Shown piece by piece: positions 1-5,182 of a DNA stretch of 64,000 nt. The notes below the pieces were generated by a model. The model saw only the letters and a list, made by a program, of their open reading frames with translations, was not told the DNA's origin and ran no database searches. The stretch spans positions 62,001 to 126,000 of the forward strand of contig CAHJWI010000005.1 of assembly GCA_903642225.1 (NCBI GenBank), given 5' to 3'. This stretch comes from Acidobacteriaceae bacterium. Its GTDB lineage: Bacteria > Acidobacteriota > Terriglobia > Terriglobales > Acidobacteriaceae. The first letter of the stretch is position 1. Every line of letters starts with the position of its first letter. Position numbers and translations under genes: made by a program.

Positions 1-795
1 AACTTTCGCGGGAATCTTGAGTCGCTCGGCCGGCTTACGGGTGACGACGTTTCCACTTACGCCGGCTATCTCGCCGCACTTCGCCAGCGCCGCGCGTTCT
101 TCAAGAGCGTGGGCGCGACCGCCACCGATCACGGCCACCTGACTGCGGCGACGGCAGACCTTGCTACCATGGACGCTGCCGCGCTCTATGCCAAGGTCTA
201 TGACGGTTCGGCTTCAGCCGCAGACGCTGCGCTGTTCCAGGCGCAAATGCTGACAGAGATGGCCGGCATGAGCGTGGAAGATGGTCTTGTGATGCAACTG
301 CATCCCGGCTCCGTACGCAATCATAACCAACCGCTGTACCAGCAGTTTGGCCGCGATAAGGGTGCCGATATTCCAGCACGGACCGATTTTGTTGGTGGCC
401 TTCGCCCACTGTTAAACCGGTACGGCAACGACCCGAGCTTTACCCTCATTTTGTTCACCCTGGACGAGTCCACCTATGCGCGCGAACTGGCACCGTTGGC
501 CGGACACTATCCGTGCCTGCGTCTCGGCCCCGCGTGGTGGTTTCACGACTCGCCGGAAGGCATGATGCGGTACCGCGAGCAGGTCACGGAGACGGCAGGC
601 TTCTACAACACAGCCGGTTTCAATGACGACACACGTGCGCTGCTCTCGATCCCTGCGCGGCATGACGTAGCACGCCGGGTCGACTGCGCTTTTCTGGCTC
701 GCCTGGTCGCAGAACATCGTCTGGATGAGGACGAGGCCTTCGAGCTCATCGAGGATCTCACCGTGAACCTAGTGCGAAAGATATACCGTCTGTGA
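1..795 (+). CDS. uxaC: Uronate isomerase (glucuronate isomerase), C-terminal part
   Basis: Isomerises D-glucuronate to D-fructuronate (and galacturonate to tagaturonate), the first cytoplasmic step of hexuronate breakdown. The frame is open from base 1, so the N-terminus lies outside the window and about 264 residues remain of a family that is usually near 470. Recognisable C-terminal family motifs include QLHPGSVRNHN, the LRLGPAWWFHDSPEGMMRY segment and TAGFYNTAGFNDDTRALLSIPARHD, which carry conserved active-site His, Trp, Asp and Arg residues. The stop codon overlaps the GTG start of the next gene (GTGA), so translation is probably coupled. It heads a six-gene run ending in KDPG aldolase, which fixes its role. 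Confidence 0.93.
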   Translation, partial: NFRGNLESLGRLTGDDVSTYAGYLAALRQRRAFFKSVGATATDHGHLTAATADLATMDAAALYAKVYDGSASAADAALFQAQMLTEMAGMSVEDGLVMQLHPGSVRNHNQPLYQQFGRDKGADIPARTDFVGGLRPLLNRYGNDPSFTLILFTLDESTYARELAPLAGHYPCLRLGPAWWFHDSPEGMMRYREQVTETAGFYNTAGFNDDTRALLSIPARHDVARRVDCAFLARLVAEHRLDEDEAFELIEDLTVNLVRKIYRL

Positions 796-2084
796 GCACG
801 TTCCTCAGCATCGGCACACCGCAGACGGAGTTATCGCCTGCCGAGATGGAGCAACACCTGAAGACTGCACTTGAGAGTCTTGGTACGCGCAAAAAGGTCC
901 TCGCCATTCCGCCGGACTACTCCCGTGCCCACTCGCAGGCCGGCATGCTTACAGAGATGGTCTGGCACCATTACGGGCCCGCGTTGACGGACGTACTTCC
1001 GGCTCTCGGCACGCACCGCCCCATGACGGAGCCGGAGATGGCCGCCATGTTCGGCTCGACTCCCCGAGAGCTGTTTCGTGTGCACGACTGGCGGAACGAT
1101 GTTGTCACGCTTGGTGAGGTTCCCGGCAGTTTTGTACACCAGGTCAGCGAGGGTGTGCTCGATTACGAGTGGCCGGCGCAGGTGAATAGACTGGTTCGCG
1201 ATGGCGGCCACGACCTGATCCTGTCTATCGGCCAGGTGGTTCCGCATGAAGTCATCGGCATGGCGAACTACAACAAGAATGTCTTTGTCGGCACGGGCGG
1301 TGTCATGGGTATTCATCGCTCGCACTTCCTGGGTGCCGTCTATGGGATGGAGCGCATCATGGGCCGCGCGGATAACCCGGTGCGAGCCGTGTTGAACTAC
1401 GCGTCAGAGCACTTCGCGCAGCAGCTTCCAATTGTGTATGTGCTTACAGTCGTGGGCAAGAACGCAGCGGGTAAGCTCGCCGTGCGCGGCCTGTTTATCG
1501 GCGACGATTCGGAGTGCTTTTACCAAGCGGCAGCACTCGCCCTGCAGGTTAACTTCGTCATGATGGATCGCGAGATTGAGAAGGCTGTCGTGTACCTTGA
1601 CCCGCGTGAGTTCAAATCCACATGGCTTGGCAACAAGAGCATCTATCGCACCCGCATGGCACTTGCCGATGACGCCGAACTCATCGTCCTTGCACCTGGC
1701 GTGCACGAGTTTGGGGAAGATCCAACGATCGACAAGATAATCCGCCGTTACGGCTACTACGGCACACCGCAAACATTGGAGTGGACCAAGGCAGACCCGG
1801 AGCTGGCCAGCAATCTGAGCGCCGCCGCACACCTGATCCACGGTTCAAGTGAAGGTCGTTTTGAAATTACTTATTGCCCAGGTCACTTATCCCAAGAAGA
1901 AATACGACAAGCCGGCTTTAAGTACGGTGACTTAGACCAGATGTTGCGCACTTACTCTCCAGAAATCTTGCAGGATGGCTGGAACACGGTGAACGGCGAA
2001 GACATCTTCTTCGTGTCCAATCCCGGCCTGGGCCTGTGGGCCTTTCGCGAGCGTTTCGGCAACGGTGGTGGAGTGATGCAATGA
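792..2084 (+). CDS. LarA-superfamily (DUF2088) nickel-pincer epimerase, probable sugar-acid (mannonate/gluconate) C2 epimerase
   Basis: 430 aa, GTG start overlapping the uxaC stop. It resembles lactate racemase LarA, which uses a nickel-pincer nucleotide covalently held by a lysine. The diagnostic residues are present with LarA spacing: H75 in ALGTHRP, H152 in QVVPHEV, K162 exactly ten residues later (the pincer-anchoring lysine position) and H178 sixteen after that; R45 lies in the DYSR segment. The family reaction is proton or hydride transfer at the C2 of an alpha-hydroxy acid. Because it sits between uronate isomerase and gluconokinase, I infer that it interconverts D-mannonate and D-gluconate rather than lactate. 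Cofactor genes larB, larC and larE are not in the window. Family assignment is firm; substrate is inferred. Confidence 0.85.
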   Translation: MSTFLSIGTPQTELSPAEMEQHLKTALESLGTRKKVLAIPPDYSRAHSQAGMLTEMVWHHYGPALTDVLPALGTHRPMTEPEMAAMFGSTPRELFRVHDWRNDVVTLGEVPGSFVHQVSEGVLDYEWPAQVNRLVRDGGHDLILSIGQVVPHEVIGMANYNKNVFVGTGGVMGIHRSHFLGAVYGMERIMGRADNPVRAVLNYASEHFAQQLPIVYVLTVVGKNAAGKLAVRGLFIGDDSECFYQAAALALQVNFVMMDREIEKAVVYLDPREFKSTWLGNKSIYRTRMALADDAELIVLAPGVHEFGEDPTIDKIIRRYGYYGTPQTLEWTKADPELASNLSAAAHLIHGSSEGRFEITYCPGHLSQEEIRQAGFKYGDLDQMLRTYSPEILQDGWNTVNGEDIFFVSNPGLGLWAFRERFGNGGGVMQ

Positions 2085-2611
2085 CAACTCAGGCAAACAT
2101 TTTTGTCATGATGGGCGTGAGTGGTTCCGGTAAGACGACTATCGGTCAGCTGCTGGCCCAGCGGCTCGGCATCAAATTCCTGGACGCCGATGATTTTCAC
2201 CCGCAGGCAAATAAAGACAAGATGCATGCTGGCATTCCACTGACGGACGATGACCGCTGGCCGTGGTTGCACACGCTGAATGGATTACTGCAGAAGCACA
2301 AAGACAAAGGTTGCGTTCTCGCCTGTTCTGCGCTCAAGCAGGTCTATCGCGATGTTCTGCTGCAGGACATACCTCCGGAACAGCTCGACTTTGTATTGCT
2401 CGCGGGTTCCCGGCAGATGATTGCCGACCGCATGGCACACCGTAATCACGAATTCATGAACGCGCATTTGCTCGACAGCCAGTTTGCGACCTTGGAGCAG
2501 CCAAAAGATGCCATCACCGTTACCAACGATCGCCAGCCGGAGGCGGTCGTGGACGAGATTCTGCACCGCGAACATATCTCCGAGAACCCAGCCGTTCAGG
2601 AAGGGAAATAA
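2081..2611 (+). CDS. gntK: Gluconokinase
   Basis: 176 aa, the usual length for GntK-type gluconokinase. It phosphorylates D-gluconate with ATP to 6-phosphogluconate in the cytoplasm. The P-loop is GVSGSGKT at residues 12-19, followed by the family segment FLDADDFHP that binds the sugar and the CSALKQVYRD motif. The ATG at 2081 was chosen because it makes an ATGA overlap with the preceding stop; a longer in-frame start at 2036 would run deep into the epimerase gene. In a hexuronate operon a gluconokinase makes sense only if gluconate is produced here, which supports the epimerase interpretation of the upstream gene. Confidence 0.93.
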   Translation: MTTQANIFVMMGVSGSGKTTIGQLLAQRLGIKFLDADDFHPQANKDKMHAGIPLTDDDRWPWLHTLNGLLQKHKDKGCVLACSALKQVYRDVLLQDIPPEQLDFVLLAGSRQMIADRMAHRNHEFMNAHLLDSQFATLEQPKDAITVTNDRQPEAVVDEILHREHISENPAVQEGK

Positions 2612-3388
2612 GTGACCAAGAATATTTTCGACTTGTCCGGAAAGACGGCCGTCGTCATCGGCGGCACGTCCGGCATTGGTTTGGCATTGGCTGTGGGCCT
2701 GGCAAACGCAGGTGCAAACGTGGTGGCATCGTCTCGCCGCGAGGAGCAGGTCAATGAGGCCGCCGACAAGGTAGAAGCGGCAGGCGCGCGCACGTTGCGC
2801 ATCACCTCGTCGGTAAGCGAGCGGGTGTCGCTGCAGAAGCTGCACGACGCGGTGTTTGACGAGTTCGGACAAGTGGATGTCCTTCTCAATTGCGCCGGCA
2901 AGACCAAGCGTGAACCGACCCTTACACTTAGCGAGGAAACCTGGAACGACATCATGGACACCAATGTGACAGGCACACTGCGCGCATGCCAGATCTTTGG
3001 CAAGTCCATGCTCGACCGCGGCTATGGCCGCATCATCAACATCGCCTCGCTCACGACCTTCGTCTCGTTCATGGAGGTGACGGCCTACTCCGCCAGTAAG
3101 GCCGCAGTGGGCGCGCTTACAAAGTCGTTGGCAGTGGAGTGGAGCAGCAAGGGAGTGACTGTGAATGCCATCGCTCCCGGCCTTTTCCGCACTGCGCTTA
3201 ACGCCGCGCTGCTTGACGGCAGCGACCGCGGTCGTGAACTGAAAATGCGCACACCCATGGGCCGCTTTGGCCAAACGCAAGAGCTTGTGGGCGCGGCGGT
3301 TTACTTGGCCAGTGACGCTGCTGCGTTCGTCAATGGCGAAATCATCACGGTCGATGGTGGTTTTCTTGCCAGCGGGGTCAACCAGTAG
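2612..3388 (+). CDS. SDR-family oxidoreductase, probable fructuronate reductase
   Basis: 258 aa classical short-chain dehydrogenase. The nucleotide-binding glycine motif is GGTSGIG at residues 17-23, the NCAG motif follows at 93-96, and the catalytic set is Ser146, Tyr159 and Lys163 (YSASK). Serine at position 41 and SRR after beta-2 suggest NADP(H) is possible. GTG start directly after the gntK stop, with AGGAAGGG upstream. Operon position between uronate isomerase and KDG kinase suggests reduction of D-fructuronate to D-mannonate; SDR-type mannonate oxidoreductases replace the long-chain UxuB in some bacteria such as Bacillus. A gluconate 5-dehydrogenase or KduD-like 2-keto-3-deoxygluconate activity cannot be excluded from sequence alone. 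Confidence 0.85.
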   Translation: MTKNIFDLSGKTAVVIGGTSGIGLALAVGLANAGANVVASSRREEQVNEAADKVEAAGARTLRITSSVSERVSLQKLHDAVFDEFGQVDVLLNCAGKTKREPTLTLSEETWNDIMDTNVTGTLRACQIFGKSMLDRGYGRIINIASLTTFVSFMEVTAYSASKAAVGALTKSLAVEWSSKGVTVNAIAPGLFRTALNAALLDGSDRGRELKMRTPMGRFGQTQELVGAAVYLASDAAAFVNGEIITVDGGFLASGVNQ

Positions 3389-3390
3389 CC

Positions 3391-4479
3391 ATGCAGCCGC
3401 TTTCCATCAAGCCGGCCGGAACCTGCATGTGGGATTTTCTCTCGCTGGGTGAGGTGATGCTGCGCTTTGATCCAGGCGAGGAGCGCATCAGCACCACCCG
3501 TCACTTCCGCGTGTGGGAAGGTGGCGGTGAATACAATGCCGCACGCGCGCTTCGCCGCTGCTTCGGCCAGCGCACCTCTATCGTCACGGCGCTTGTCGAT
3601 AATCCGGTGGGCCGCCTTGTAGAAGACCTGATGCTGCAGGGTGGCGTCGACCAATCGCACGTCCTGTGGCGGCCCTATGACGGTGTCGGTACAGAAAGCC
3701 GCAACGGCATGTACTTTCTGGAGCGTGGCTTTGGTGTGCGCGGCGCACTGGGCAGCATGGACCGCGGTCACACCGCTGTTTCGCAACTCAAGCCCGGCGA
3801 CATCGACTGGGACCACATCTTCGGCGGGGAAGGTGTTCGCTGGTTCCACACCGGCGGCATCTTCACCGCACTCAGCGATACCACCATGGCTGTTGCGCAG
3901 GAAGCCATGTCTGCGGCCAGGCGTTACGGCACCGTTGTTTCGTACGACGCGAACTACCGGCCTTCGCTTTGGAAGTCACGCGGAGGCAGGCTTGCCGCTG
4001 CTGCTGCAAACTCTAGCCTTACGGAGAACGTCGACGTGTTGTTCGGCCACGAAGGCGATTTGTCCGCGGAGCCCATGGAGGCTTCCAGCGGCCCGCCTTC
4101 GCACACAGCGGAGACCTATGCTGCCATGGCCGATCGTGTGCAGGCAGCTCATCCTACGCTCAAGGTCATCGCTACCACCACGCGGAAGCCGCGCACGGCC
4201 AATCGTAACGATTGGGGTGGCTACGCCTTTGACGGTGCTGGTATGCACAGCGCTGCGGAGATGCAGGATCTGGATATCCTAGACCGCGTCGGCGGTGGCG
4301 ATGGATTTGTGGCAGGTCTGGTGTTCGGCATGCTGCAGGCGTGGCCCATGGCGCAGTCGCTGCAGTGCGGTGTTGCCAGCGGGGCCCTCGCCATGACGAC
4401 CCCTGGCGACAGCAACTTCGCTAAGCTGCAGGAAGTGGAACGCTTGATGGCCGGAGCTTACGCAGGCGTGCAACGATAG
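3391..4479 (+). CDS. kdgK: PfkB-family sugar kinase, probable 2-dehydro-3-deoxygluconate kinase
   Basis: 362 aa ribokinase/PfkB-fold kinase. The N-terminal LSLGEVMLRFDPGEERI and GGGEYNAARALRR segments match KdgK-type sugar-binding regions, and the C-terminal RVGGGDGFVAGL carries the catalytic Asp and anion hole of PfkB signature 2. It would phosphorylate 2-keto-3-deoxygluconate to KDPG, feeding the aldolase encoded next. The start is ambiguous: ATG 3391 lies two bases after the preceding stop, but ATG 3427 (protein beginning MWDFLSLGE) fits the usual family N-terminus better. It belongs to the hexuronate operon. Confidence 0.88.
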   Translation: MQPLSIKPAGTCMWDFLSLGEVMLRFDPGEERISTTRHFRVWEGGGEYNAARALRRCFGQRTSIVTALVDNPVGRLVEDLMLQGGVDQSHVLWRPYDGVGTESRNGMYFLERGFGVRGALGSMDRGHTAVSQLKPGDIDWDHIFGGEGVRWFHTGGIFTALSDTTMAVAQEAMSAARRYGTVVSYDANYRPSLWKSRGGRLAAAAANSSLTENVDVLFGHEGDLSAEPMEASSGPPSHTAETYAAMADRVQAAHPTLKVIATTTRKPRTANRNDWGGYAFDGAGMHSAAEMQDLDILDRVGGGDGFVAGLVFGMLQAWPMAQSLQCGVASGALAMTTPGDSNFAKLQEVERLMAGAYAGVQR

Positions 4480-4513: not shown

Positions 4514-5182
4514 ATGACCAAGTCAAAAGTTCTTCAGCGCATGAAGAAGACGGGGCTGGTACCGGTGCTGCGTGCCACATCGTCCACCGAGGCGCTGGCC
4601 ATCGCCGAGGCCATTGCAGCCGCCGGCGTGGATGTGCTCGAAGTTACCATGACCGTTCCCGGCGCCATGGACGTTATCCGCACGCTGGTGCGCGAAAAGC
4701 CCCAGATGCTGGTGGGTGCGGGCACGGTGCTTGATCCCGAAACAGCGCGTGCCTGCATGCTGGAGGGCGCGCAATTCATTGTCAGTCCGGCAATGAATGT
4801 GAAGACCATCGAGATGTGCCGCCGATATAGCTGTGCCGTTCTGCCTGGCGCGCTCACTCCTACTGAAGTTATTACGGCATGGCAGGCTGGCGCGGATGTG
4901 ATCAAGGTGTTCCCGGCCAGCGCCATGGGTGGTGCAAAGTACCTTAAGAGCCTCAAGGCCCCTTTGCCGCAGATAGAACTGGTTCCCGCGGGAGGAGTTT
5001 CGGTGGCAACTGCCGCAGAGTTCCTCGAGGCCGGTGCATTCGCTCTCGGCGTAGGAGCTGACCTTGCGGATGGTAAAGCGATTGCCGAAGGCCGCCCCGA
5101 GCGCATTACCGAAACAGCCCGCGCCTATCTGCGCACGATCGCGGCTTGGCGTGAGACCAGCGCTGCGGGGCAGTCCGATTAG
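4514..5182 (+). CDS. eda: KDPG / KHG aldolase
   Basis: 222 aa class I aldolase that cleaves 2-keto-3-deoxy-6-phosphogluconate into pyruvate and glyceraldehyde 3-phosphate. The Schiff-base lysine is K131 in DVIKVFPAS and the catalytic glutamate is E43 in LEVTMTVPG. The Arg that follows the Glu in the E. coli enzyme is replaced by Thr47, as in the Bacillus-type branch with a TMTVPGA motif. Length and motif order are normal. It ends the hexuronate operon and would serve both arms: KDG kinase, and 6-phosphogluconate if an Edd dehydratase exists elsewhere. Confidence 0.95.
   Translation: MTKSKVLQRMKKTGLVPVLRATSSTEALAIAEAIAAAGVDVLEVTMTVPGAMDVIRTLVREKPQMLVGAGTVLDPETARACMLEGAQFIVSPAMNVKTIEMCRRYSCAVLPGALTPTEVITAWQAGADVIKVFPASAMGGAKYLKSLKAPLPQIELVPAGGVSVATAAEFLEAGAFALGVGADLADGKAIAEGRPERITETARAYLRTIAAWRETSAAGQSD

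Follow-up and report, generated by a model that had tools for sequence, protein, structure and literature searches.

A LarA-superfamily group 18 protein as the probable mannonate/gluconate epimerase of a glucuronate operon in an Acidobacteriaceae genome

At the start of a 64,000-nucleotide stretch of an Acidobacteriaceae bacterium genome (contig CAHJWI010000005.1, positions 62,001 to 126,000; hereafter the window) lies a six-gene operon that very probably, at a probability we put near 0.85, breaks down D-glucuronate by a Thermotoga-type route through a LarA-like mannonate/gluconate epimerase. In the proposed pathway, UxaC would convert D-glucuronate to fructuronate, a short-chain dehydrogenase (SDR) would reduce fructuronate to D-mannonate, and the LarA-like protein would invert C2 to give D-gluconate, with hydride passing to and from a nickel-pincer nucleotide (NPN) and with H75 and H152 acting as the acid/base pair. 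GntK would then phosphorylate gluconate to 6-phosphogluconate, which Gnd, encoded elsewhere in the genome, would convert to ribulose 5-phosphate for entry into the pentose phosphate pathway. All six open reading frames (ORFs) are on the + strand, and are as follows (aa, amino acids; KDG, 2-keto-3-deoxygluconate; KDPG, 2-keto-3-deoxy-6-phosphogluconate; KHG, 2-keto-4-hydroxyglutarate):

1..795, + strand: 3′ part of uxaC, glucuronate isomerase (PF02614 6e-40; NF002794 3.3e-93 on the partial protein)
792..2084, + strand: LarA-superfamily group 18 protein, probable D-mannonate/D-gluconate 2-epimerase (GntE-like), 430 aa (NF052594 650.1 bits; 4nar; E-V-A-H signature)
2081..2611, + strand: gntK, gluconokinase, 176 aa, ATG start (TIGR01313 173 bits, cut-off 114; solved gluconate kinases 3t61 and 1knq)
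2612..3388, + strand: SDR, probable fructuronate reductase in the UxaD/UxuB role (1vl8; SDR homologues in relatives' loci)
3391..4479, + strand: PfkB sugar kinase, KDG-kinase-like (PF00294; best solved relative 2afb, a 2-keto-3-deoxygluconate kinase)
4514..5182, + strand: KDPG/KHG aldolase (PF01081; TIGR01182 197 bits, cut-off 156)

The full uxaC ORF is 462 aa long and starts on the same contig 594 bases upstream of the window, and the gene upstream of it is divergent. The gene for the LarA-like protein (larAH) has a GTG start, and its product matches Lar_N (PF09861) at 35.4 bits (cut-off 23.3). It overlaps both of its neighbors by four bases, as an earlier sequence-only reading of this DNA had stated, with GTGA at 792-795 shared with uxaC and ATGA at 2081-2084 shared with gntK. 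The sister species G396 keeps the order uxaC-larAH-gntK-SDR-kdgK-kdgA, with larAH at 83% and about 1.4 kb (two extra ORFs) separating the SDR gene from kdgK, and the arrangement therefore goes beyond chance. A cultured relative, Edaphobacter lichenicola M8US30 (L105), also has a uxaC-larAH-gntK-SDR operon.

The LarA-like protein matches the NCBIfam model NF052594 (NPN_18_hexonate) at 650.1 bits (cut-off 500) over residues 11-417; the model is labeled 'nickel-dependent putative hexonate epimerase' and corresponds to group 18 of the LarA superfamily (Desguin et al. 2020). Lactate or malate racemase was rejected as an identity, the three models concerned giving 25 bits (NF033504, cut-off 460), 41 bits (NF052593, cut-off 500), and 24 bits (NF052595, cut-off 462). 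The closest solved relative, 4nar (123 bits), carries the deposition name putative uronate isomerase, and we take it to be the T. maritima GntE. The NPN-binding and catalytic residues D42, R45, H75, H152, K162, H178, and K282 are all present, as is W278; the LarA counterparts of the first seven are D72, R75, H108, H174, K184, H200, and K298, the last pair being assigned by motif via the 4nar alignment, with no direct LarA alignment there. The sequence-only reading had credited the pincer residues H75, H152, K162, and H178 with exact LarA spacing; the residues are there, and the spacing is exact from H152 to K162 to H178 (10 and 16 residues, as in LarA H174-K184-H200), but H75 and H152 are 77 residues apart versus 66 in LarA.

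We followed these positions in a phylum sample of 396 genomes, in which NF052594 is over its cut-off in 45 (46 matches in total), and in named-genome loci, taken as the best 80 of 578 relatives and belonging, by their titles, to Acidobacteriota, Bacteroidota, Planctomycetota, Ignavibacteria, Verrucomicrobiota, and others. A tree of 89 sequences, including every fourth named locus and leaving out the frame-broken L196, contains clade 18a (56 tips, support 0.94) and clade 18b (18 tips, support 1.0), here also clades a and b; the window protein is in 18a, beside that of G396. The eight cofactor and catalytic residues, W278 among them, are identical in 61/61 aligned proteins of the phylum sample (the window protein counted) and at 80/80 named loci.

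Four specificity positions, at LarA F175, F176, W358, and T359, usually hold E, V, A, and H in GntE proteins, according to excerpts of a 2024 study (PMC11770544). The window protein has E153, V154, A346, and H347 at these positions, with the register at LarA 358/359 resting on the 4nar alignment and the alignment to the LarA chain stopping at residue 220; the 4nar residues are E, S, A, and H. E-V-A-H is kept in 38/38 clade-a proteins (the window protein counted), in 8/8 clade-b proteins, in 15/15 weaker relatives, and at all 80 named loci bar one A-to-S change at 346. The signature supports a predicted sugar-acid 2-epimerase, not a particular sugar acid.

The remainder of the assembly fits the proposed pathway. 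We sought larB, larC, and larE, whose absence would have refuted the sequence-only reading by its own criterion, and found all three clustered on contig C37 (L099 7411-10456), each over its cut-off; loading of the window protein with NPN we infer. The gnd gene is split across the overlapping ends of contigs C40 and C51, its larger part alone scoring 324.6 bits against TIGR00872 (cut-off 297), and zwf adjoins it. The assembly has no PF03786 candidate for UxuA, no Edd match, and no enolase-type mannonate dehydratase, its two MR_MLE_C matches being menC (322 bits, cut-off 201) and enolase (706 bits, cut-off 300). For this 94%-complete assembly, we reject a mannonate dehydratase arm of either the UxuA or the enolase type on the PF03786 and MR_MLE_C searches, and an Edd route on the Edd result.

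In this assembly the epimerase looks like the sole way out of mannonate and not a side shunt. The sequence-only reading had suggested that it might run in parallel with a KDG arm, which is not supported because no enzyme taking mannonate to KDG was found here, and had offered the Entner-Doudoroff route as one fate of 6-phosphogluconate; with Edd not found and both Gnd and Zwf present, entry into the pentose phosphate pathway is likely instead. The same absences leave KdgK and KdgA without a known mannonate-derived substrate, and the two enzymes would require KDG or KDPG of other origin. Their genes, downstream in the same operon, could also suggest the opposite direction, with the epimerase turning gluconate into mannonate, which a mannonate dehydratase would convert to KDG for KdgK and KdgA. 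Among 65 genomes tested, UxuA matches occur in 5/7 that have clade b only, a count in favor of that direction, in 11/38 with clade a, and in 1/20 without group 18, and Edd is over its cut-off in 3/65. The 27/38 clade-a genomes without any UxuA-family match, together with the lack of a detected UxuA, enolase-type dehydratase, or Edd in the window's own assembly, make this direction highly improbable.

Gene context across the phylum also fits the proposed pathway. Besides the window's own locus we examined 45 others, 37 of clade a and eight of clade b, counting neighbors by tblastn at E up to 1e-8, with SDR matches reaching down to 24% identity and some loci cut by contig ends; families identified at the loci are UxaE, LarB, LarC, LarE, Gnd, and GntR-FCD. 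The 37 clade-a loci have uxaC in 20, uxaE in 18, SDR in 30, gntK in 20, gnd in nine, and gntK or gnd in 29. At the eight clade-b loci the counts are uxaC three, uxaE three, SDR four, and neither gntK nor gnd, and 15 of the 16 best sub-cut-off matches (G243 left out) give uxaC none, uxaE one, SDR nine, gntK none, and gnd three. The single-contig genome G217 carries uxaC-larAH-uxaE-PfkB-SDR and a Gnd over its cut-off; it has no UxuA match, and its seven MR_MLE_C matches may still include an enolase-type mannonate dehydratase, such matches having been identified individually for the window's own genome only.

Two related operons have a PfkB kinase in gntK's place (L034 8746-9828 and L035 8441-9547, larAH set to +), and loci of other phyla commonly have PfkB and gnd but no kinase of the GntK type. 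Both observations hint at a PfkB-type gluconokinase.

At the 80 named loci, under the same tblastn threshold and with SDR and uxaC matches down to 24-29% identity, gnd is found at 36, SDR at 55, PfkB at 36, uxaC at 28, uxaE at 24, gntK at three, and uxuA at three. Of these loci, 47 have flanks of 4 kb or more in both directions, and 28 of the 47 have gntK or gnd. Outside Acidobacteriota, all three sampled SDRs adjoining larAH or one gene off are D-mannonate oxidoreductases (366-379 bits, cut-off 281), so that a mannonate maker sits close to the epimerase there, and gnd, whose product uses 6-phosphogluconate, follows; one Acidobacteriaceae SDR is under that cut-off, like the window's own. Signature residues, larBCE, and this cross-phylum context together back the LarA-family C2 epimerase of the sequence-only reading, which would convert mannonate to gluconate and so feed the gluconokinase.

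The same context bears on two other explanations. The enzyme could epimerize a different hexonate, a uronate, or an aldarate (altronate, for example, or glucarate to mannarate), with the gntK pairing serving otherwise. Group 18 activity is predicted from sequence, and Desguin et al. raised another substrate for group 19, given its high Km for mannonate (PMC7583248, in excerpt), but the occurrence in several phyla of both the presumed substrate maker, a mannonate-oxidoreductase-type SDR, and the product users, gntK and gnd, near group 18 genes renders this improbable. We regard as similarly improbable a reversed order of steps, in which GntK phosphorylates mannonate and the LarA-like protein epimerizes 6-phosphomannonate to 6-phosphogluconate. 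Such activities were shown in Lactobacillus suebicus cell extracts, with genes unassigned (excerpts of PMC6978723), and gntK does adjoin larAH here; however, the assayed GntE enzymes use free D-mannonate (PMC7583248 and PMC11770544, in excerpt), and in other phyla group 18 stands beside gnd without a GntK-type kinase (FGGY-type gluconokinases not having been searched for).

The step before the epimerase would fall to the SDR encoded between gntK and the PfkB kinase gene. Its closest solved structure is 1vl8, deposited as a gluconate 5-dehydrogenase and presumably a T. maritima protein, and its homologues adjoin uxaC, uxaE, or larAH in relatives. The SDR gene shares one operon with those for UxaC, the LarA-like protein, and GntK, and a fructuronate-reductase role is predicted for its product, which is below the D-mannonate oxidoreductase cut-off. 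The tagaturonate epimerase gene uxaE is not among the six operon genes, in a search confined to the operon, the remaining genome not being searched.

Several observations weigh against a mannonate/gluconate epimerase in a glucuronate pathway. The E-V-A-H signature is common to groups 18-20 and to all weaker relatives aligned, and so does not prove the exact hexonate; nor does the literature consulted give a measured activity for any group 18 member. The SDR has KduD as its top NCBIfam match, at 240 bits and below the cut-off of 339, and scores 220 bits against D-mannonate oxidoreductase PRK08277 (cut-off 281); it may instead act in the KduD role. Because the window's own assembly is 94% complete, absences from it are provisional, and, unlike most relatives, it has no ILVD_EDD-family protein by the edd model, not even IlvD, an oddity that may reflect a gap in the assembly or a real loss. 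The locus counts are not independent, since the loci are related by descent. Finally, eight of the 47 long-flank named loci lack all of uxaC, uxaE, gntK, gnd, and SDR, as do 17 of the full 80. Proteins from five of these eight loci match no uronate-pathway family, and one from a sixth has no match; the families seen at the five are alginate export, Fe-alcohol dehydrogenase, DUF3857, MacB/FtsX, NAGLU, and outer-membrane efflux.

The window's genus is divided between the two clades. All 19 genomes have a group 18 match, which is over the cut-off in 18, the gene of G401 being in three pieces. The window genome and G396 have 18a together with the nickel insertase LarC, and the other 17 congeners have 18b. 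None of these 17, four of them listed as single-contig assemblies, has a PF01969 match to LarC, and TIGR00299 is also negative in six of them. LarB is over its cut-off in 16 of the 17 (the exception, G402, is 70% complete), and LarE was found in all 15 in which it was sought (all but G399 and G402). In 14 of the 17 genomes larAH, larE, and larB can be seen to form a cassette (L068, L070, L072, L074, L075, L192, L193, L195, L196, and L198-L202). Across the phylum sample, LarC is present in 37/38 clade-a genomes, the exception being 81% complete, and in 0/7 clade-b-only genomes. No LarC-less LarA system is mentioned in the text consulted or among the literature matches listed. If 18b is active, its pincer nucleotide could be metallated by some other route, bear another metal, or be unmetallated, and LarC-less 18b is a natural test of the general need for LarC in making the cofactor.

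In the congener G305, a uxaC-gntK-SDR set (L102 3516-6201) has no larAH between its genes, and the clade 18b larAH is on another contig; larB-larE is directly downstream, on the opposite strand. The uronate cluster of a Sedimentisphaerales bacterium contains genes for a DNA methylase and a restriction endonuclease of the MvaI/BcnI type (L132 8331-10115), placed between larAH and the kinase-gnd genes.

Tentatively, and at somewhat less than even odds, we propose a broader view in which group 18 constitutes a genuine GntE family and provides the sole mannonate exit in this genome and perhaps in many Acidobacteriaceae, and in which the 18b enzymes of the genus work without LarC. What is added here is context-based evidence for group 18 as GntE, in an assembly without a detected mannonate dehydratase, which offers a concrete function for a sugar-acid group of LarA homologues (LarAH) previously described as a hypothesized hexonate epimerase. 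In Bacteroidota, Planctomycetota, and Ignavibacteria, group 18 genes lie beside gnd and a mannonate oxidoreductase gene, which suggests that the entry of uronate carbon into the pentose phosphate pathway by way of a nickel cofactor may be more widespread than the textbook KDG route implies.

The nearest known system is that of Thermotoga maritima GntE2 (LarAH20), which shares the proposed pathway logic and whose UxaR operon aldH-pelB-gnd-uxaRED-gntEK likewise puts an SDR, a GntE, and a GntK in one operon and likewise pairs uronate isomerization with 6-phosphogluconate dehydrogenase; 4nar and 1vl8 are the closest solved relatives of the window proteins. The window protein differs in reaching only 123 bits to 4nar and in belonging to LarAH group 18, not 20, and its operon includes uxaC, with neither uxaE nor gnd among its six genes. 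T. maritima also has kdgA-kdgK-uxuB-uxuA, and uxuA was not found in the window's assembly. Within group 18 itself (NF052594) the window protein is a member by a near full-length match, the family function being given as 'putative hexonate epimerase'.

The sequence-only reading had thought the shunt might be new. It is not: by the account given in PMC6978723, Rodionova et al. proposed it for Thermotoga in 2012 and pointed to homologues of gntE in Lactobacillus, Acidobacterium, and Terriglobus. GntE activity has also been measured for other LarA groups, and the window operon is therefore a well-supported new example of a known pathway. By title, no Acidobacteria-specific account of the route appears among the literature matches listed. 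In Desguin et al. 2020 (PMC7583248), groups 19 and 20 epimerize D-mannonate to D-gluconate, and group 18 is only a hypothesized hexonate epimerase. D-mannonate activity was measured for GntE1, GntE2, and LarAH15 in 2020 and 2024; of these, GntE1 (LarAH19, Corynebacterium glutamicum) and LarAH15 (Phytophthora nicotianae) are NPN-dependent D-mannonate/D-gluconate 2-epimerases, but GntE1 belongs to another LarAH group and has a very high Km for mannonate, and LarAH15 is eukaryotic (PMC7583248 and PMC11770544, in excerpt). The route of Lactobacillus suebicus also leads from mannonate to 6-phosphogluconate without KDG; it differs in that phosphorylation comes first, by a mannonate kinase and a 6-phosphomannonate 2-epimerase whose genes are unassigned (PMC6978723, in excerpt), whereas in the window operon the predicted epimerase would act before the kinase.

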